Part shown: piece by piece, positions 10,879 through 35,293 of the stretch
Numbering within the stretch: position 1 is the first letter of the stretch
How the letters are laid out: the number at the start of each line of letters is the position of its first letter
Source: Bacteroidota bacterium
GTDB lineage: Bacteria > Bacteroidota > Bacteroidia > Sphingobacteriales > Sphingobacteriaceae
Direction of reading: 5' to 3'
DNA length: 39,407 nt
NCBI GenBank assembly: GCA_018828585.1
Contig: JAHJVW010000113.1
Coordinates: forward strand, 1-39,407
The notes under the pieces: model-generated
What the model saw: the letters and a program-made list of their open reading frames with translations, nothing else
Databases searched by the model: none
What the model was told of the DNA's origin: nothing
Translations under genes and position numbers: made by a program

Positions 10879-12522
10879 ATGAAGTTAATGACTATAAAGA
10901 ATATACCCATACAGCGTATACTTGTTGCTTTATTTTTACTGTTGGTGGTCGCTATTTTTTTAAATAGATATATTGAAAACAACAAAGTTAAAAAAAATGC
11001 AGACTTTGTTATTAAAACATTAAATAGAACACAAAGAAAAAATTCTTCGATTATACAGTTAAAAGATGGTATAGATGATATTCAAATTAACCTTTTAAGG
11101 TATCTTTTTTATAAAAATGAGGAAAGAAAAGAAATTGCATTAACTGCCCTACAAAAAGGAATAAGAGAAATTCCATCTAACCTATATGAATATCGCAAAA
11201 TCATTAATGATAAGGTAGAATTACAAATATATAATCAACTTCTAAAAGACATAAACATTTACCTAAAACATGCTACAGCTTTACAATCCTTAATTAAAGC
11301 GAAAAAAATGAACAAAGCCAGCGAATTTAATTCTTCGGTTGTCTATCACGATTATCATTTAACTAAAAATTCAATTAATAAATATTTTAGGTACTTGTAC
11401 CAAGCAGAAAATAAGGAGATTAGTCAAGCTCAAGTCGATTTAAATCAACGTCAAGACATGGGTTATTACTTTACTATAATCTTTACTGTTTTTTTAATAT
11501 GCTTGGGCTTGGTAATTTCAGAATCAATTACTCAGAAGAATAAGATCAACAAGGAATTATCTAAAAGCGAAAAAAGATACAAAGCTTTAATTGAGCATAC
11601 CACAGATATTTTGGAAACCGCGGATAGTAATGGTAAATTAATAAGCGTAAACCGCAGTTTTAAAGATAAGTTGGGTTATAACGAGGAGGATTTAAAAAAC
11701 CTATACCTTATTGATATCATGGCCCCTGAGTCTATTGATACATTTGTACCACACCCCAAAAAAGAAGAATTTGGGGAAATCATTACAGGTATTAAAAAGA
11801 CCCTAATGACTAAAAGTGGCAAGAAAATTTTAGTAGAAGGAAATATACTTTTGGATTTTGAAGGAGATCATTTTTCTGGATCTTCTGCCTATTATAATGA
11901 TGTTACCGAAAAAACATTAATGCAAAGAAAATTAGTTCATTCCGAATTAAAATATCGCAATTTGTTTAATTTAAGTCCTTTTGCTAACTGGCTAATTAAC
12001 CCTACTAACCTTAAAATAGAGCAGTTTAACCAAGAAGTGCTAGTGAGATATGGATATACTAAAGCAGAATTAAATAAGATGAATCTTGCAGATTTACACC
12101 TTCCTGAGGATAAGGAACGTATCCAACAAATGATACACCAAGCTTTATTAAATGAAGTAACAAAATATGAAATTAAACAGCAAAAGAAAGATGAAACATT
12201 GATTGATGTTGAATTTTATACAACCAGGATACTATTAGATGATGACATAGAAAGTGTTTTGGTTGTTTGTAAAGATGTTTCAGAAGAAAAATTTTATAAA
12301 AATTCACTCGAAGCTCAAAATAAAAGATTAAAAGATATCGCTTGGACACAATCTCATATAGTTAGGGCTCCTTTAGCAAGAATGATGGGATTGATGAGTC
12401 TTATTGAACACGAGTCAACCACGTTAACGGAAAAAGAAGAAATGTTACAATACTTATCAAGTTCAACTCATGAATTAGATCAAGTGATTAGCCACATTGT
12501 AAAAACAACTCATGAAGTATAA
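10879..12522 (+). CDS. Membrane PAS-domain sensor with HisKA-like H-box but no HATPase domain
   Basis: 547 residues. Helix TM1 is about 13-30 and TM2 about 196-216; between them lies a helical periplasmic sensor region of about 165 residues, of the CHASE3/four-helix kind. Two PAS folds follow, about 231-345 and 355-470 (each opening with KYRNLF- or RYKALI-type PAS starts). Residues 485-545 resemble a dimerisation/phosphoacceptor domain with H493 in SHIVRAPLARMMGLM. The protein then stops: the N, G1, F and G2 boxes of the ATPase domain are absent. This truncated form is, from memory, recurrent in Bacteroidota, so it may be natural rather than broken. It may act with another kinase in trans. 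Stimulus unknown. Confidence 0.85.
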   Translation: MKLMTIKNIPIQRILVALFLLLVVAIFLNRYIENNKVKKNADFVIKTLNRTQRKNSSIIQLKDGIDDIQINLLRYLFYKNEERKEIALTALQKGIREIPSNLYEYRKIINDKVELQIYNQLLKDINIYLKHATALQSLIKAKKMNKASEFNSSVVYHDYHLTKNSINKYFRYLYQAENKEISQAQVDLNQRQDMGYYFTIIFTVFLICLGLVISESITQKNKINKELSKSEKRYKALIEHTTDILETADSNGKLISVNRSFKDKLGYNEEDLKNLYLIDIMAPESIDTFVPHPKKEEFGEIITGIKKTLMTKSGKKILVEGNILLDFEGDHFSGSSAYYNDVTEKTLMQRKLVHSELKYRNLFNLSPFANWLINPTNLKIEQFNQEVLVRYGYTKAELNKMNLADLHLPEDKERIQQMIHQALLNEVTKYEIKQQKKDETLIDVEFYTTRILLDDDIESVLVVCKDVSEEKFYKNSLEAQNKRLKDIAWTQSHIVRAPLARMMGLMSLIEHESTTLTEKEEMLQYLSSSTHELDQVISHIVKTTHEV

Positions 12523-13891: not shown

Positions 13892-15157
13892 TTAATTTAC
13901 CTTTTTTAATTGACCCGATTCGAACTTCATTACCATTAAACTGCTGTTATAATATCCTGTTTTGGAATCTTTTACAAAAGCAAAGTCATTATGGATGCCA
14001 TCATAATTCTCCTTTTCAACTAAACTCATAAACTCTTTTCCTTTTTCATTCATCAATGATGCAAAATAATAGCCAATATCAAAACCTTTAACTGCATATT
14101 CGCTAGGCTCTAACTGAAATTTAGATCTATAATTCTTAATAAAAACAGCACTTCTCCCATACTTATAATTCACCTGATAAGAAGAAGTTGTGTATGCATT
14201 TAATCGCTCCATGATACGATAGTCTAAAAACGAAGCTCGCTCCCAACCTGGGTGCCCAACTAAAGTGATTTGATAAGTTTCACTTAGCTTAATTAACTCT
14301 TTAAAAATATCTGTTAAAAATAAACGATCTGTTGCTGGTAACACCACCACGTTAGAGCCTGTAGGACTTAAATATTTAAATACGTTAGCCATTCCAACAG
14401 CTTTGATTCCGATTTCGCTTACCGGAATTCCCTTAGCTAAACTATCCATTCCTTTTTTAAATGGTACGGCATATTTATACTCATCAGCCTGACCACTTCT
14501 AATCAAAACTACTTTCTTTGGTTTTAACTTTTGCTTTATAAAAGATGCTGCTTTAAAAGCATGTTGATCTAAAGAATTGTTAATACTTACTAAATATGGA
14601 TTTTGGAATAAATATGGATCTGACGCTGCTAGAGGCGATACCATTGGTATTTTTAAATTCCTACTATAAATAGAAAAAGTTTTAATTCCATTAGGAAAAA
14701 CCGGGCCTACTATTAAATTAGAGGCTTTAATTGCCCCTTTTGCAGCTAAATTTGCCAACTGAGTTGGATCATCCTTAGAATCAAAAAGCTGAAGCTTATA
14801 ATTTACTTTTGCATTTTGATGCGCCACAGAATCCACTCCCATTTTAAAACCTTGGTAAAAGTCTATTGCAATCTCTGATTTTTTCATATCACTAAGATTG
14901 GCATTTTGATAATTCACAGCACCTAAATCAAATGGCAAAATCAAAGAAATAATCATTTCTTCTGGGGATTTTGTTTTCTCAGAAGGTTCTAATTCTTTAA
15001 TTACTGGTTCTTCTTTCTGTTTATCTGGTGCTGGCGTTGGCCCTTTTTTTGTTGGAGCAGTTTTAGGCGAACAAGCACTTAAAAACATCCCTAACAAAAA
15101 AATTCCTATTATTTTATTCCCACTCAATCGTTGCAGGCGGTTTAGAACTAATATCAT
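13892..15157 (-). CDS. Periplasmic-binding-protein-like lipoprotein (Peripla_BP_6 type)
   Basis: 421 residues. Signal peptide II with lipobox LSAC (Cys at 29) anchors it to a membrane. A Pro/Lys/Glu-rich linker (about 30-65) leads to a type I periplasmic binding fold similar to LivJ-like amino acid receptors: [32 protein letters not shown] and [14 protein letters not shown]. No permease genes are adjacent, so transport is not shown; relatives in Bacteroidota sometimes carry LysM repeats, absent here. The ATG at 15157 overlaps guaA by 44 bases; the in-frame TTG at 15127 would give [19 protein letters not shown], a more standard signal peptide, and only 14 bases of overlap, and may be the true start. 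Confidence 0.8.
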
Positions 15158-16646
15158 ACACTACTCGGTTAACTCCTTTTATATTATTGATGATCTCATT
15201 AGATATTTTAGCCAACAAATCATAAGGTAAATGACTCCAATCTGCAGTCATTCCGTCTACTGATTCCACAGCTCTTAAAGCGACTACGTTTTCGTACGTA
15301 CGTTCATCACCCATTACGCCAACAGATTGAACAGGCAAATAAATTGCTCCTGCCTGCCAAACTTTATCATACCACCCAGAATCTTTTAAATTCTTGATAT
15401 AGATATAATCTGCCTCTTGTAATATACCTACTTTTTCAGGAGTAATATCTCCTAAAATTCTAATTGCTAAGCCAGGTCCAGGAAATGGGTGACGACCTAA
15501 AATATCATCTGGTAAACCTAAAGCCTTTCCAACCCTACGTACTTCATCCTTAAATAAGGATTTTAAGGGCTCAACAATTTTTAACTTCATAAAGTCAGGT
15601 AAACCGCCAACGTTATGGTGTGATTTAATAGTTGCAGACGGACCTCCGTTTACCGAAACTGATTCTATCACATCCGGATAGATTGTTCCTTGAGCTAGCC
15701 ATTTTACATCATTAATCTGATGAGCTTCATCATCAAATACTTCTATAAAAACCCTGCCAATTGCTTTTCTTTTTAACTCAGGATCAGATAATCCTTTTAA
15801 AGCGTCATAGAATCTTTGCTTAGCATCAACCCCTTTAACGTTTAATCCTAAATTCTTATAAGAATCTAAAACCGATTCAAACTCATTTTTTCTTAATAGA
15901 CCGTTGTCAACAAAAATACAATGTAGGCTTTTGCCAACTGCCTGATGTAGTATCAATGCTGCTACAGATGAATCTACTCCGCCTGATAATCCTAAAACCA
16001 CTTTATCATCTTTAATCTGCTCTTGCAAATCAGCGATAGTGGTTTCGGCAAATGCAAAAGGTGTCCAATCTTGTGAACAGCCACAAATATCAATTAAGAA
16101 GTTTTGCAATAATTGCTTACCATCAGCAGAGTGTGTCACCTCCGGATGAAATTGAATGCCATAAGTTTGGGTTCCCTTAATTTGATAAGCAGCTACCTTT
16201 ACGGTATCCGTACTTGCTATAATTTCAAATTCTTCTGGGATTTCTTTGATGGTATCGCCATGAGACATCCAAACCTGAGATCGTACAGGCAAATGCTGCA
16301 TTAAGGTATTATTGCTATGGATGTATTCTAAATTTGCTCTTCCATATTCTCTAATTTCAGACGGAGTAACTAATCCCCCTGAATGTTGAGCTATATATTG
16401 TGCACCATAGCAAACACCCAATAAAGGTAGTTTACCATGAAATTGACTAAAATCTATTTGTGGCGCATCAGCCTGACGAACTGACGAAGGACTTCCTGAA
16501 AGGATTATTCCTTTTGTATATTCATCAATTTCAGGAATCTTATTAAATGGGTGTATCTCACAATAAACATTCAGTTCGCGAACTCTTCTAGCGATGAGTT
16601 GGGTATATTGAGAACCGAAATCGAGGATCAGAATTTTCTCTTGCAT
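15114..16646 (-). CDS. guaA: GMP synthase (glutamine-hydrolysing)
   Basis: 510 residues from ATG 16646. It makes GMP from XMP, glutamine and ATP. The class I amidotransferase domain (1-190) has nucleophile C79 in GVCYGAQ and the His-Glu pair in [10 protein letters not shown]. The ATP-pyrophosphatase domain has the P-loop LSGGVDSS, and the C-terminal dimerisation domain has [14 protein letters not shown] and the ending KPPATIEWE. The frame is open two codons further to a TTG at 16652, but that codon overlaps the -7 box; the ATG is the normal family start. It leads the operon with the lipoprotein and RNA methyltransferase, and is divergent from the NlpC/P60 gene. Confidence 0.98.
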
Positions 16647-16649
16647 GGG

Positions 16650-16657
16650 CAAAGATA
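16650..16657 (-). promoter_or_regulatory. Possible -7 box (TATCTTTG) for guaA
   Basis: On the minus strand TATCTTTG is an exact TAnnTTTG match whose G is separated from the guaA ATG by only three bases (CCC). If used, the transcript would start at or next to the ATG, giving a leaderless or nearly leaderless mRNA. No clear -33 element was found. Confidence 0.45.
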
Positions 16658-16756: not shown

Positions 16757-17392
16757 ATGAAAAGCATCTTTTGTAAAATCTTACTCGTATCAAGTATTTC
16801 ATCTTTAATACTCAGTTCATGCGAAAGATTTCATAATCGTTCGAATGTCATAGAGGCCAATCAAAGTATTTTAGATACTGCCCAGCGATATATCGTTTTA
16901 TCGAAAGATACCAGCAGCTCCATAAAAGATAGTACACCACACAGTGAAATTCCAAATAACACAGTATCTGTAGATACGTTACCGAACAAAGTGCAAGGTT
17001 CGCCAGATGCTTTGGTAGCCTATGCTGTTACATTTGAGGGTGTACCTTATGCTTATGGCAAACAAGACCCAGTTGAAGGCTTTGATAATTCAGGATTTGT
17101 AAATTATGTTTTTAAACATTTTTCGGTAGATGTTCCACGTTATACTGCAGAGTTTGCAAAAGTCGGACGATCAATTACAGAAGACAAAGCTGGTCCTGGC
17201 GACTTAATCCTATTTTCTATATCTGACACCTCTAAGAAAACAGTGGCACATGTTGGGATTATTACTTCTGAAACTGGCTTACCTATCTCATTTATACATT
17301 CCTCATCAGGCAAAAGTAGACAAGTATCCATCACTACGATGAATACTTATTATCAAAAACGTTTAATTGGTATAAGAACTTTATTTAGATAG
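16757..17392 (+). CDS. NlpC/P60-fold lipoprotein with catalytic Cys replaced by Asn
   Basis: 211 residues. A lipoprotein signal with lipobox LSSC (C22) is followed by a Ser/Thr-rich linker (about 23-82) and an NlpC/P60 (C40) domain (83-211). In active enzymes, which cut murein peptides, the motif is DCSGFV. Here it reads FDNSGFV, with N111 (codon AAT) in the Cys position. The His of AHVGIIT (H165) and H181 in FIHSSSGK remain, as do GVPYAYG and GPGDLILF. As seen it should lack peptidase activity and may bind cell wall or regulate an active partner. The M20 peptidase gene starts 4 bases downstream, so they are cotranscribed. Confidence 0.85.
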   Translation: MKSIFCKILLVSSISSLILSSCERFHNRSNVIEANQSILDTAQRYIVLSKDTSSSIKDSTPHSEIPNNTVSVDTLPNKVQGSPDALVAYAVTFEGVPYAYGKQDPVEGFDNSGFVNYVFKHFSVDVPRYTAEFAKVGRSITEDKAGPGDLILFSISDTSKKTVAHVGIITSETGLPISFIHSSSGKSRQVSITTMNTYYQKRLIGIRTLFR

Positions 17393-17396
17393 CATT

Positions 17397-18842
17397 ATGA
17401 AAAAAATTCTAAAATATGTTGGAATAATTATCATCATTTTAATTGCTTTTGTGCTTTTCAAAACGTTTACTTTTAAGAGTAAACAAATAAAAGAAGCACA
17501 GGTGCCTTTGTTAAAATTAGACGATTCCTGTGTTGTTCATCTACAAAAATCGATACAGTTCGAAACTATTTCTTACGATGATCCTAAGCAAATGGATAGT
17601 AGTCAGTTCAAAGGCTTTCAGCAATTTCTGATGCAAACTTATCCTTTGGTTTTTTCTAAAATGACTTTAGAGAAGGTGAACAATTTTAGTTTGATTCTAC
17701 ATTGGAAAGGAAAATCGGCGACAGCCAAGCCTATTATTTTAATGGCCCACCAAGATGTAGTTCCCATTGAAAAAGCAACATTAAATAAATGGGATGCTGA
17801 GCCGTTTTCAGGTCAGATAAAAAATGACTTTATTTATGGGCGGGGAGCTATAGATGATAAAGGCAGTTTAATATCCATTTTAGAAAGCGCCGAGTTACTG
17901 TTAAAGCAAAGTTTTATACCCGAAACAGATATTTATTTTGTGTTTGGACACGATGAGGAAATATCTGGTTTTAAGGGTGCAAAAGTGATGGCACAACTTT
18001 TTGCCGATAGAAAAATATCCCCCGCTTTTGTTTTGGATGAGGGAGGAATTATTACCGAATACAAAGTACCAAGGTTGAATAAAACTGCTGCTGTAGTAGG
18101 CATTGCAGAAAAAGGTTATCAAACTTTAGAATTGAAAATCAATATCCCAGGGGGGCATTCATCTATGCCAGAAGAGCATACTGCAATTGATGAGATGGCT
18201 AAAGCAGTGGTAAAATTAAAAGAAAATCAGTTTAAACCAGAAATTACCCCCATAGTAAAAAGCTTTTTGAGCTATATTGGACCGGAGATGCCTTTTATAA
18301 GCAAAATGGCCATGGCAAATCAGGGTTTATTTAAACCTATGATTATCAGTAATTATGCAAAATCAGCTGCTGGTAACGCAACTATTAGAACAACAACTGT
18401 TACAACTATTTTTAATGCAGGCCTTAAGGAGAATCTAATTCCTGGCGAAGCACAAGTTACTGTTAATTTTAGAACGCAACCAGGAGTGAGCAGACAAGAT
18501 GTGGTTGATCATGTAAAAAAAGTAATTAATAACGATTCTATAAAAATTACTCCAATAGGCAAAGGAAATGAACCTAAACAAATAGCAAATGTTGATGACC
18601 CCACTTTTAAATATATCCAAAAAACCATTTCTGCTTTTCATCAAAATATTATTGTCGCACCATATTTAGTTTTAGGTGCTACCGATGCAAGATATTTTGG
18701 AAACATCACTTCTCAAATATTTCGCTTTAGTCCATTTACCGATCCTGAAGGTTTTCATGGGGTAAATGAGCGAATCAAAATCTCAGAATATAAAAAAGGC
18801 ATTAGCTTCTATTATGAGTTGATTAAAAATTATAAACCTTAA
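17397..18842 (+). CDS. Membrane-anchored M20 family metallopeptidase
   Basis: 481 residues. A single N-terminal helix (about 6-24) anchors or exports it; the rest is the M20 fold with two zinc sites. Metal and catalytic residues are in MAHQDVVP (H118, D120), GRGAIDDKGS (D153), FGHDEEISG (E187, E188) and LDEGG (D214), with the C-terminal His in EGFHGVNERI. The length and the ordering resemble the Gly-Xaa carboxypeptidase/PM20D1 branch, which trims small dipeptides or N-acyl amino acids. The substrate is not evident. It starts 4 bases after the NlpC/P60 gene, suggesting a joint role in peptide turnover at the envelope, which is inference. Confidence 0.92.
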   Translation: MKKILKYVGIIIIILIAFVLFKTFTFKSKQIKEAQVPLLKLDDSCVVHLQKSIQFETISYDDPKQMDSSQFKGFQQFLMQTYPLVFSKMTLEKVNNFSLILHWKGKSATAKPIILMAHQDVVPIEKATLNKWDAEPFSGQIKNDFIYGRGAIDDKGSLISILESAELLLKQSFIPETDIYFVFGHDEEISGFKGAKVMAQLFADRKISPAFVLDEGGIITEYKVPRLNKTAAVVGIAEKGYQTLELKINIPGGHSSMPEEHTAIDEMAKAVVKLKENQFKPEITPIVKSFLSYIGPEMPFISKMAMANQGLFKPMIISNYAKSAAGNATIRTTTVTTIFNAGLKENLIPGEAQVTVNFRTQPGVSRQDVVDHVKKVINNDSIKITPIGKGNEPKQIANVDDPTFKYIQKTISAFHQNIIVAPYLVLGATDARYFGNITSQIFRFSPFTDPEGFHGVNERIKISEYKKGISFYYELIKNYKP

Positions 18843-19119: not shown

Positions 19120-19953
19120 TTAAATCTTTTTAAAATTTATATCAGCATGTTTCCCCTCACTTATGGTATAGTAACTTCTTCCGTCTTTAGTTAACCCTAC
19201 AGCTTCACCCTGTTTTTCTGGATTGTACGGCAATCCATCAAATGCTCTTTTTAAGCATTGTGGAATAGTTTCGTTTAGTTTTCTGTCCCAATAGAAAATA
19301 AAAATATAAGATTTAATTACTACCTCTTTTCCATCTCTGGATATATCACCAGCTGTAATCCATTTAGAACCTGGTCCACCAGGAAAAGTTAATGTCATTT
19401 CCTTTTTTAAAATAATGATATTTCCTTGCTTACTATTTAATGGAGCAGAATAAAGACCTACATGATCCTCTCTTTTAGAAACGATATAAATTTTTTGGTC
19501 ATGTTGGTCTATCATTAAACATTCTGCGTCTCGCGGACCGTCAGGATACTTAAAACGCAATTCTTCTACATTTTTAACTGCTATTTCGTCTTTAGATTTA
19601 ATGGCTAGATTGGGTTCATCAAACTTATAAATACTGATGTATTCTCTTCGAGCACTATTATCACCAATATCTCCAACAAAAAGCTGTGGCTTTCCATTTT
19701 TAGGGTAATTCATAGCGATATCTTCACAATCAATAACTTCTTTATTAAAGTTGAATACTGCTTGCGTTTCTCCTTGATTATCAATCAAAAAAACACGGCT
19801 TTTATCTCCGCTGTCATTATGAACCCAAAGTAAATTGTCTTTTTTTGAAGAAACGACTAAACCTGAACATTCATCGATATCACTATCCTGAAGTTTTTGT
19901 CCAAAAAGAAGATTTGAGCTTAAAATTAAAAAGAAGAAAATCAGATTTTTCAT
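19120..19953 (-). CDS. Secreted protein with beta-propeller-like repeats, function unknown
   Basis: 277 residues with a signal peptide (MKNLIFFFLILSSNLLFGQ). The mature part looks like a beta-propeller: repeated short strands with motifs LLWVHNDSGD, DCEDIAM, PQLFVGDIGDN, GPRDAECLMID, KIYIVSKRE and GEAVGLTKDGRSYYTISEG. The DAE and E-AVGL motifs are reminiscent of phytase-like or esterase-like propellers, but I cannot assign a named family. Its ATG directly follows the TAA of the dCMP deaminase gene with no gap, so it is the third gene of the transporter-deaminase operon. Function unknown. Confidence 0.75.
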   Translation of the reverse strand: MKNLIFFFLILSSNLLFGQKLQDSDIDECSGLVVSSKKDNLLWVHNDSGDKSRVFLIDNQGETQAVFNFNKEVIDCEDIAMNYPKNGKPQLFVGDIGDNSARREYISIYKFDEPNLAIKSKDEIAVKNVEELRFKYPDGPRDAECLMIDQHDQKIYIVSKREDHVGLYSAPLNSKQGNIIILKKEMTLTFPGGPGSKWITAGDISRDGKEVVIKSYIFIFYWDRKLNETIPQCLKRAFDGLPYNPEKQGEAVGLTKDGRSYYTISEGKHADINFKKI

Positions 19954-32862: not shown

Positions 32863-33414
32863 CTAATCAACTTTAGACTCTTTCCTCGCAATATTGGCTG
32901 CTCCAATCAAAACCATCATCAATAAAATGGAAACCATTTCTAAAGGCAACAAGTATTTACTCATCAGGTTGATGCCGATATTTCTAATGGTATTATCCGA
33001 AACAGAAATCACATTCCCATTCGCAGCCGAGGCCTTTATCCAATTCAGGTTTTCAAAATCAATCTGAAAGAAAATGAAACCCAAAACCGCTAAAAATAAA
33101 ACCGAAATTAAAGCTCCCGGCAAACGATGAGCAGACAATAAACCCGAAGGAATTTTGTCCATCCCTTCCAATGATTCTTTCGATGAAAGTAGAAATGCAA
33201 AAAGTAATAACACCAAAACACCGCCTACATAAATCACCACTTGAGTTAAAGCCACAAAATCCGCCAAAGCGAAAACATACAATCCTGCAACAGCAAAAAG
33301 AGTCACAAAAAACATAAAAACCGAGCGTACCAAATGTTGACTGAACACCACAAAAGCAGCGCTTCCGATGGCAATTGCAGTTAAAACATAAAATATGATT
33401 TGTGCTATACTCAT
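32863..33414 (-). CDS. nuoJ: NADH-quinone oxidoreductase subunit J
   Basis: 183 residues, five-helix subunit of complex I. Helix 3 ALTQVVIYVGGVLVLLLFAFLL carries the conserved Tyr-Val-Gly-Gly segment (pi-bulge region) of the proton path. Start overlaps the nuoI stop as ATGA. The usual next gene nuoK is displaced by the antitoxin/PIN insertion starting 49 bases downstream. Confidence 0.95.
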   Translation of the reverse strand: MSIAQIIFYVLTAIAIGSAAFVVFSQHLVRSVFMFFVTLFAVAGLYVFALADFVALTQVVIYVGGVLVLLLFAFLLSSKESLEGMDKIPSGLLSAHRLPGALISVLFLAVLGFIFFQIDFENLNWIKASAANGNVISVSDNTIRNIGINLMSKYLLPLEMVSILLMMVLIGAANIARKESKVD

Positions 33415-34001
33415 TTTTTATCTTCTTCCATTTTTTTTAGAGCTGCCAATTTTGCTGCTTGTCTTTCGGCTTGTTGCTTTTCTAATTCCAAACGCTTTTC
33501 TTCTGCTTCAGCCTCCGTCATGGTGGCGAATTTATAATTCAAATCCGAGATATGCGTCACACTTTTATCGTAACCGGGCGTCATGGTAATACATTCTGTC
33601 GGGCAAACCGTGGTACACAAACCGCAGAACATGCACTTCGCCATATCGATATCAAATTTGGGCGCATACAAACGTTTAACCGAACCATCCGAAGTTTTCC
33701 CAATCACATCCGTTGCTTTGATGCTTTCAATATCTATACAATCTACCGGACAAATTTTGGCGCATAAATCACACACAATGCAATCATCCATCTCCACCGT
33801 CAACTGGTAACGCCCCACCTCTGGCACCGGCAATTTTTGATGTGGATATTGAACCGTCGCAATCCCATTCTGCTGCTCAAAATAATCCGCTTCCTTAATC
33901 CCCTTCACTTTTTTAGAATGTGTGGCAGCACCAAAATGTTGGAGCGTTAAACTCAAACCCTTCCATGCCGTCTTCAATCCGTTAAAAGCTTCTTTAATCA
34001 T
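33411..34001 (-). CDS. nuoI: NADH-quinone oxidoreductase subunit I (2x[4Fe-4S] ferredoxin)
   Basis: 196 residues, peripheral-arm subunit carrying clusters N6a and N6b. Two ferredoxin motifs: C74, C77, C80, C84 (CIVCDLCAKICP) and C123, C126, C129, C133 (CMFCGLCTTVCP). An N-terminal amphipathic part docks it to NuoH. The C-terminus from about 160 is a Glu/Ala/Lys-rich predicted helix (EAEAEEKRLELEKQQAERQ) not present in E. coli NuoI and probably variable. A 215-base repeat-filled gap separates it from nuoH, larger than normal for this operon. Confidence 0.96.
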   Translation of the reverse strand: MIKEAFNGLKTAWKGLSLTLQHFGAATHSKKVKGIKEADYFEQQNGIATVQYPHQKLPVPEVGRYQLTVEMDDCIVCDLCAKICPVDCIDIESIKATDVIGKTSDGSVKRLYAPKFDIDMAKCMFCGLCTTVCPTECITMTPGYDKSVTHISDLNYKFATMTEAEAEEKRLELEKQQAERQAAKLAALKKMEEDKK

Positions 34002-34025
34002 TTATATTTTTTTATTTAACCTTTT

Positions 34026-34228
34026 TTGTCACCCTGAGCGGAGTCGAAGGGCCTACAAAAAAGAATGCCGCTTTAATCTCTACCTTTCGGCAGACAGGCT
34101 TAACCCATCTTTCAAACGTATTAAAAATCTTGCTCAAATTGTGCACTCTGTGCAAATCCTCCGTGTCTTCCGTGGTTAGCCTTCGACTCCGCTCAGGCTG
34201 ACAACTTCGACTCCGCTCAGGCTGACAA
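34026..34228. repeat. Dispersed repeats in the nuoI-nuoH gap (24-bp tandem plus inverted copy)
   Basis: CTTCGACTCCGCTCAGGCTGACAA occurs twice in perfect tandem at 34181-34204 and 34205-34228. An inverted relative, TTGTCACCCTGAGCGGAGTCGAAGG, lies at 34026-34050. Between them are other phrases recalled as dispersed in Bacteroidota genomes, including TGCACTCTGTGCAAATCC and TCCGTGTCTTCCGTGGTTA (about 34141-34178). The last tandem copy overlaps the 3' end of nuoH and contains its stop codon. No transposase is linked, so this looks like a REP-type element cluster. Confidence 0.8.
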
Positions 34229-35293
34229 TAATATCAACCTCCACAATCCCGAAATCACCAAACATCCAAAAGCAATCGGCGTTAAAACCTTCCAACAAAG
34301 TGTCATCAACTGGTCGACACGTAAACGTGGTAATGTCCAGCGAATCCACATTTGTGCAGCCACCACCAATAAACATTTTCCCATCACCCAAAATATCCCC
34401 CAAAAAACTCCTGTCGTATAATCTGCTAAATGCAAACTACCGATATTTGGTAAGGGTGTATTCCAACCTCCTAAAAATAGGGTGACACCCAACATAGCCA
34501 CCAAAAACATCATGGCGTACTCTGCCAAAAATATAAAAGCGAAACGTAAACCTGTATATTCTGTATGAAAACCACCAATCAATTCCGATTCTGCCTCAGG
34601 CAAATCAAACGGAGCTCGATTACATTCGGCCAGCGAAGCGATGAAATAAATTACATACGCTACCAATAAATGTGGTGCCTGAAAAACATTCCACGCCAAT
34701 ATGCCTCCAATTTTATTGACTTCTAAAACCCCGAAAAACTTAATTTGTTCGGTCGCTAAAACGCCTTGATTATAATTGATGACTTGTAAATCCAACGATT
34801 GGGAAATCATCACGGCAGAGATGATAGCGAAACCAATAGGAATCTCATAAGAAACCATTTGCGCCACCGAACGCACCGCACCCAATAAACTGTACTTATT
34901 GTTTGAGCCCCATCCCGCCATTAATATCCCTAAGGCTTCAATAGAAATAATAGCGAATACATAAAAAACGCCCAAATTCATATGGGCTGGAACCAATCCC
35001 GGAGCCCAAGGCAGAGCTACAAAACCCAAATACACCGCCACAAAAATAATAACAGGCGCAATGGTGAATAGTACTTTATCTGCCAAAGCCGGAACGATGT
35101 ATTCTTTTTGAATGAGTTTGAGGATATCAGCAGCGGTTTGCAACCAGCCAAATTTCCCAGTTTCCATTGGCCCTAAACGGTCCTGAATAAAAGCCGAAAT
35201 CTTACGCTCGGCATAAACGCTCACCAAAGAAAAGGCAGCAATAAAGCCAAAAATAGAAATGGCAACCAGAAAATAGATGACGTAAAAATTCAA
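34217..35293 (-). CDS. nuoH: NADH-quinone oxidoreductase subunit H
   Basis: 358 residues, the membrane subunit that forms the quinone site at the arm junction. Seen: SVYAERKISAFIQDRLGP (ERK-RxG signature), GILMAGWGSNNKYSLLGAVRSVAQMVSYEIP, AECNRAPFDLPEAESELIGGFHTEYTG and the C-terminal WTLPRLRVDQLM. The start is TTG at 35293, with an in-frame TAG two codons upstream and no ATG until about residue 43, so TTG is forced. Its last three codons and TGA fall in a 24-bp dispersed repeat. nuoG is not upstream; an accessory gene is. A -7 box lies 24 bases upstream. Confidence 0.95.
   Translation of the reverse strand: MNFYVIYFLVAISIFGFIAAFSLVSVYAERKISAFIQDRLGPMETGKFGWLQTAADILKLIQKEYIVPALADKVLFTIAPVIIFVAVYLGFVALPWAPGLVPAHMNLGVFYVFAIISIEALGILMAGWGSNNKYSLLGAVRSVAQMVSYEIPIGFAIISAVMISQSLDLQVINYNQGVLATEQIKFFGVLEVNKIGGILAWNVFQAPHLLVAYVIYFIASLAECNRAPFDLPEAESELIGGFHTEYTGLRFAFIFLAEYAMMFLVAMLGVTLFLGGWNTPLPNIGSLHLADYTTGVFWGIFWVMGKCLLVVAAQMWIRWTLPRLRVDQLMTLCWKVLTPIAFGCLVISGLWRLILLSA

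Follow-up and report, generated by a model that had tools for sequence, protein, structure and literature searches.

Dead relatives of peptidoglycan hydrolases can prove to be regulators or anchors. Among proteins with an intact NlpC/P60 domain, YkfC of Bacillus cereus has its role in peptide recycling, while MepS (Spr) of E. coli is a murein endopeptidase lipoprotein with a catalytic Cys. Active NlpC/P60 peptidases go under the name of C40 in the part of the family literature drawn on here, where the separate papain-like family DUF1175 (PF06672) is called inactive and said to bind peptidoglycan (PMC10318531). The portion of the YkfC structure paper used here gives a catalytic triad of Cys238-His291-His303 and two SH3b domains, names Tyr226, Trp228, Asp237, Ser239 and Ser257 as contacts of gamma-D-Glu, and places Asp237 and Arg255 in the hydrogen-bond network of the active site (PMC2954226). 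The closest described case of a non-catalytic NlpC/P60 protein is RipD (Rv1566c) of Mycobacterium tuberculosis, which, in the excerpts of two papers, binds peptidoglycan without hydrolysing it (PMC12067865, PMC6628586), and which has Ala83-Ser132-Glu144 as the corresponding residues (PMC12067865).

The window (i.e., the whole stretch of 39,407 nucleotides that was analysed, from a Bacteroidota bacterium) contains an ORF of 211 aa at 16757..17392 on the forward strand, with orthologues in seven further genomes. The product scored 63.4 bits against Pfam NLPC_P60 (PF00877; cut-off 23) over residues 95-207, and this was its sole Pfam match at E<=0.001, DUF1175 being another Pfam family. A hydrophobic signal sequence leads to the lipobox LSSC, read from the translation at residues 19-22 (16811..16822, forward strand); by the lipobox reading alone the product is a predicted bacterial lipoprotein, lipidated at Cys22, and Cys occupied this place in all eight orthologues. 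A variable linker follows, and then a C-terminal NlpC/P60 domain of about residues 81-210 (16997..17386, forward strand), delimited by the Pfam match, model confidence and structural comparison. In an AlphaFold2 model built with nine sequences, pLDDT was 80-94 in blocks across residues 81-210, while every block of the first 80 residues fell below 55, such that a long N-terminal helix modelled there was of low confidence. When residues 81-210 of the model were compared with solved structures, they matched 7cfl (Z = 21.7, 1.5 A over 124 residues), YkfC (3h41, Z = 20.4), MepS entries (Z = 16-19) and RipD (4jxb, Z = 16.5); the predicted domain therefore has the NlpC/P60 fold. Its motif reads FDNSGFV, with Asn111 at the position of the catalytic Cys. 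The first-pass annotation had described an NlpC/P60 lipoprotein whose catalytic Cys is replaced by Asn, and ORF, Pfam score, lipobox and motif all agree with this. The genome that supplied the window has four other NlpC/P60 genes, all with Cys.

The protein scored 45.2 bits against the RipD family model NF033743 (cut-off 215) and is not a RipD. The two share the NlpC/P60 fold (Z = 16.5 for 4jxb, 15.9 for 4lj1) and a replaced nucleophile, although in RipD the His is replaced also, according to the excerpts, while here Asn111 is accompanied by a variable position 165. Their architectures differ, RipD having, in the same excerpts, an N-terminal NlpC/P60 domain with pentapeptide repeats, whereas the domain described here lies at the C-terminal end and is preceded by a lipobox and an N-terminal element. 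MepS is likewise an NlpC/P60 lipoprotein (40-43 bits; Z = 16-19 for 2k1g, 8xud and 7v6s), but keeps the catalytic Cys (Ser in the 7v6s chain) where the window protein has Asn; against the MepS equivalog NF008096 the latter reached 51.2 bits, below the cut-off of 186. YkfC resembles the window protein in fold and, by motif, in the gamma-D-Glu pocket residues named in the portion of the paper used.

When 301 genomes of the family were searched with the protein, 207 gave matches, and the residue at the nucleophile position was read only in the loci that were fetched. Of 41 loci aligned, 30 had Cys (Cys-types) and 11 had Asn (Asn-types), the latter representing eight distinct genomes including that of the window. 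The family was covered more widely by scanning DNA for the Asn motif, with the pattern G[FILM]DNxGF (x being any residue that DSN specifies), which occurred at 61 places in 399 family genomes; eight of these were the Asn-type genes. Fifty of the other 53 places were examined, and in no case did the matching sequence code for NlpC/P60, while the three outside that check comprise two that read GIDNWGF and one with a stop. Across 345 genomes of the phylum, GFDNxGF occurred at 13 places, of which only the window's own was NlpC/P60. Motifs that read GVDN, for instance, or in which the Gly is not followed by Phe, escape these patterns; within their reach, the carriers of the Asn-type gene are eight genomes forming one clade of one genus. 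No description of an Asn-type NlpC/P60 protein from this group was found among the titles and abstract openings listed from the open-licence literature.

Alignment of the orthologues, which the first-pass annotation had proposed as a check, gave Asn at position 111 in eight of eight Asn-types, rather than uniformly Cys, so that the Cys of C40 peptidases is absent throughout the clade. All 20 aligned Cys-type homologues had Cys there, seven of them coming from the corresponding locus in genus g21; four other Cys-type loci (G141, G052, G095, G156) are not among these 20, and all four read FDCSGF. His165 of the window protein (17249..17251, forward strand, within AHVGI) occupies the position of the catalytic His, which was His in 20 of 20 Cys-types but in the Asn-types was His in three, Gln in two, and Ser, Tyr and Asn in one each. 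His181 (17297..17299, forward strand, within FIHSS) occupies the third catalytic position, where seven Asn-types had His and one Tyr, compared with 18 His and two Gln among the 20 Cys-types. It had been claimed that both His are kept; this holds for the window protein itself, but among its orthologues only the second is largely retained.

Asn111 was one of 32 invariant columns among 131 in the Asn-types, with a site rate of 0, while position 165 ranked 95th of 131 from the slowest. The Asn codon was AAT in seven genes and AAC in one, and two bases must change to turn Cys (TGY) into Asn (AAY). Between the window's genome and the closest one, G138, dS for the whole gene was 1.08 and dN was 0.20; by the resulting dN/dS of about 0.19 the gene is under purifying selection. 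No internal stop was present in any of the eight genes. The protein has therefore been maintained, while its catalytic dyad has not. Catalysis has very probably been lost from the Asn-types, because position 165 may be His, Gln, Ser, Tyr or Asn among the eight, and the drift of this His within the clade came after the change from Cys to Asn, because three members still have His. The earlier view of a protein that is dead yet constrained was thus supported by the fixed Asn, the variable His position, the purifying selection and the presence of the gene throughout one clade.

The former substrate groove was assessed by mapping the YkfC pocket, as described in the portion of the paper used, on to the Asn-types by motif and spacing rather than by a superposed complex. 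Tyr98 (17048..17050, forward strand), the motif equivalent of YkfC Tyr226, was present in eight of eight Asn-types and 20 of 20 Cys-types. Position 100 (Tyr100 in the window protein, corresponding to Trp228) was aromatic in seven Asn-types and Thr in G054. Asp110 (Asp237) was present in all eight, and Ser112 (Ser239) in seven, with Ala in G084; Asp110-Asn111-Ser112 (17084..17092, forward strand) thus places Asn111 between two presumed pocket residues. Position 130 (Ser257) was small in all eight, being Thr in three, Ser in three and Ala in two. By contrast, Arg128 (Arg255), which was invariant in 20 of 20 Cys-types, was Arg in five Asn-types, Lys in two and Thr in one, and of the stretch TGTDST, also invariant in Cys-types, only the Asp was kept. 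The residues that match the gamma-D-Glu pocket are therefore mostly, but not wholly, retained. The loss of Arg128 and TGTDST tells against an unchanged ligand and, since retention of the pocket is incomplete, the ligand may have changed.

A second feature sets the Asn-types apart. Residues 20-55 (16814..16921, forward strand) form an element of 36 residues around the predicted lipidated Cys that was found only in Asn-types; when the eight sequences were aligned it had seven invariant columns. Run on 251 family genomes, a profile of this element matched its eight source genes and no other protein at E<=0.01, while a search of the 18 genus genomes gave six weak further matches (E = 0.048-0.78). 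It was not apparent by eye in the aligned Cys-types. The clade-wide changes are therefore two, the replacement of Cys by Asn and the N-terminal element, for which a docking or placing role is suggested.

The gene lies beside guaA (15114..16652, reverse strand), which is directly upstream and divergent in all eight Asn-type loci, with lipoprotein and rsmB-like genes behind it. In genus g21 a Cys-type gene was found at the corresponding place, on the same side of guaA, in seven genomes, with a small ORF between the two genes in six of the seven; in one g21 genome (G114) guaA lies beyond the contig end and the placement rests on other neighbours. Two further g21 genomes, G021 and G077, had a Cys-type gene at 1.9 and 4.5 kb from guaA. 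The g21 gene encodes the same domain, with 40-48% identity to the Asn-types over the aligned part, but reads FDCSGF, has the invariant His and by eye lacks the N-terminal element. Within the window's own genus, 17 of 18 genomes yielded guaA, the eighteenth (G143) being 77% complete; eight of the 17 had the Asn-type gene and nine had no NlpC/P60 gene at the locus, nor did the Asn-motif pattern match anywhere in those nine. The M20 gene directly adjoins guaA in five of the nine, and four smaller genomes had neither gene. These four (G133, G123, G128 and G118) are of 2.2-2.8 Mb, with no NlpC/P60 gene at the guaA locus and no M20 found at E<=1e-60. Two conserved-block genes of G108 (L084:5611-6239 and L084:10602-11737) were each split into two frames, through either frameshifts or sequencing errors.

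A tree of 25 rows, made from GuaA and the neighbouring lipoprotein and rooted on g21, placed the eight carriers in one clade with good, not full, support (SH-aLRT 94.8, bootstrap 93). Its inner forks were partly resolved, but every member of this clade has the gene and there was no loss inside it. In the domain tree also the Asn-types formed one clade, with support of 99/91 when all eight were included and 100/100 with seven rows (i.e., without G054). With a Flavobacterium outgroup, the Asn clade fell among the Cys-types of the family, and their joint group had support of 100/100. The tree did not show the Asn-types and the syntenic g21 genes as one group; forcing the two together was 5.8 log units worse, with a p-AU of 0.159, by which their union is not rejected. 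Since the tree neither rejects nor supports this union, orthology with the g21 gene rests on the locus.

The next gene downstream of the Asn-type gene encodes an M20 peptidase (17397..18842, forward strand; Peptidase_M20, 112 bits) that starts 4 bases past the stop codon, and the first-pass annotation had taken this spacing as a functional hint. The 4-base gap was present in the window and in G138, but G065 has a gap of 6 bases and G084 one of 44; M20 was next door in only these four of the eight genomes. In G040 and G054 it was on the same contig at distances of 7.4 and 8.9 kb, respectively, and in G097 and G113 it was on another contig. Given that M20 also stands beside guaA in five genomes without the Asn-type gene, it is not a conserved neighbour and a functional link is not supported, adjacency not being conserved, even though M20 in G040 and G054 remains within 9 kb. 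The G113 homologue of M20 (G113:C1:740773-742215) has one in-frame TAA.

Comparison with G138 revealed a patch of divergence that covers the linker and domain, with approximate limits of 16907..17396. DNA identity was 72-76% over 16951-17400, compared with 92.5% over the preceding 150 bases and 97.3% over the following 150; dS was 0.17 for codons 1-50 and 1.9 for codons 51-211, while other genes in a stretch of 14 kb had dS of 0.07-0.4, except that at 19120-19953. The simplest cause would be the replacement of linker and domain, but not of the tail, by a divergent Asn-type allele. Since the comparison concerns one pair of genomes, it supports no trend. The exception, at 19120-19953 on the reverse strand, encodes 277 aa with a signal-like start, which neither Pfam nor NCBIfam matched at E<=0.001. 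Its dS was 2.2, compared with less than 0.4 for most neighbours, and it is apparently a second patch of recombination, some 2 kb away from the first. Among the 28 of 35 window genes that were matched on the G138 contig, this gene and the Asn-type gene had the highest dS, the next value being 0.75. Three adjacent genes at 32863-35293 (reverse strand) had dS of 0.53-0.75, above most, and perhaps represent a further exchange patch. An ORF of 547 aa at 10879-12522 (forward strand) had no match on the G138 contig at E<=1e-20, although the flanking genes were 96-98% identical; this reflects either an insertion in the window genome or a loss in G138.

Several explanations may be given for a domain that has kept its fold without its nucleophile. 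The reading that we favour, and consider somewhat better than evenly balanced, is that the Asn-type protein is a membrane-anchored, non-catalytic binder of stem peptides, perhaps with a docking tail. The predicted lipid anchor would place it in the envelope, where the former active-site groove would still hold, but no longer cut, the L-Ala-gamma-D-Glu stem peptide of peptidoglycan; the protein might then tether the envelope to the wall, or mark and shield stem peptides, while the N-terminal element would dock a partner or set the protein's place. It may be that it works like RipD, by analogy. The least credible explanation is that the Asn reflects a decaying gene or an error of sequencing or assembly; while the gene is absent from the locus in nine of the 17 genus genomes with guaA, an Asn that takes two base changes, recurs in eight genomes and is written with two codons, in genes that lack internal stops, have a dN/dS well below one and suffered no loss within the clade, makes this very unlikely. 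It is also decidedly improbable that the protein remains an enzyme with changed chemistry based on Asn111. Strict fixation of the Asn, unlike a position that has been freed, could be expected of such an enzyme, but five of the eight proteins have Gln, Ser, Tyr or Asn at the position of the general base, and no papain-fold hydrolase that uses Asn as its nucleophile is known to us.

A more serious rival, tentative and on balance unlikely, is that of a regulatory pseudoenzyme, in which the dead domain binds and controls another envelope protein and wall binding is secondary or lost; the partner might, with as little assurance, be a Cys-type NlpC/P60 paralogue, an amidase or an envelope machine. 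The clade-specific N-terminal element fits protein docking, Arg128 and TGTDST are not kept, and Cys-type paralogues coexist with the Asn-type in five of eight genomes (the window's own, C30; G138, C99; G040; G054; and G084, C15). However, no neighbouring gene is conserved except on the side of guaA, not every genome has a close Cys-type paralogue (G097 and G113 had one match each at E<=1e-5, which was the Asn-type itself), and the presumed pocket residues are mostly retained. The suggestion of a wall-binding or regulatory subunit, made from the window alone, is therefore plausible, with indirect support from those residues, the RipD precedent and the N-terminal element. The patch of divergence relative to G138 admits one further, improbable interpretation: a constant N-terminal docking element would be joined to a dead NlpC/P60 module, the exposed face of which is exchanged between strains as a cassette. 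If true, the module might serve at the wall as a decoy, a shield or a means of recognition, diversifying against the peptidoglycan hydrolases of rivals or against phages, and a dedicated partner would read the N-terminal element.

Whichever role is correct, the Asn-type protein represents, at the level of sequence, an independent and well-supported instance of an NlpC/P60 lipoprotein that has probably ceased to be catalytic. RipD is the clear NlpC/P60 precedent found in print, to which the Asn-type would add an independent example from Bacteroidota, one with a lipid anchor. The conserved N-terminal element offers a testable candidate for a docking site. The Cys-type gene of g21 at the corresponding locus, the clade of eight Asn-types and the relatives within the same genus that are without the gene together provide a comparative series, with which one may ask what a wall hydrolase is worth once cutting stops.
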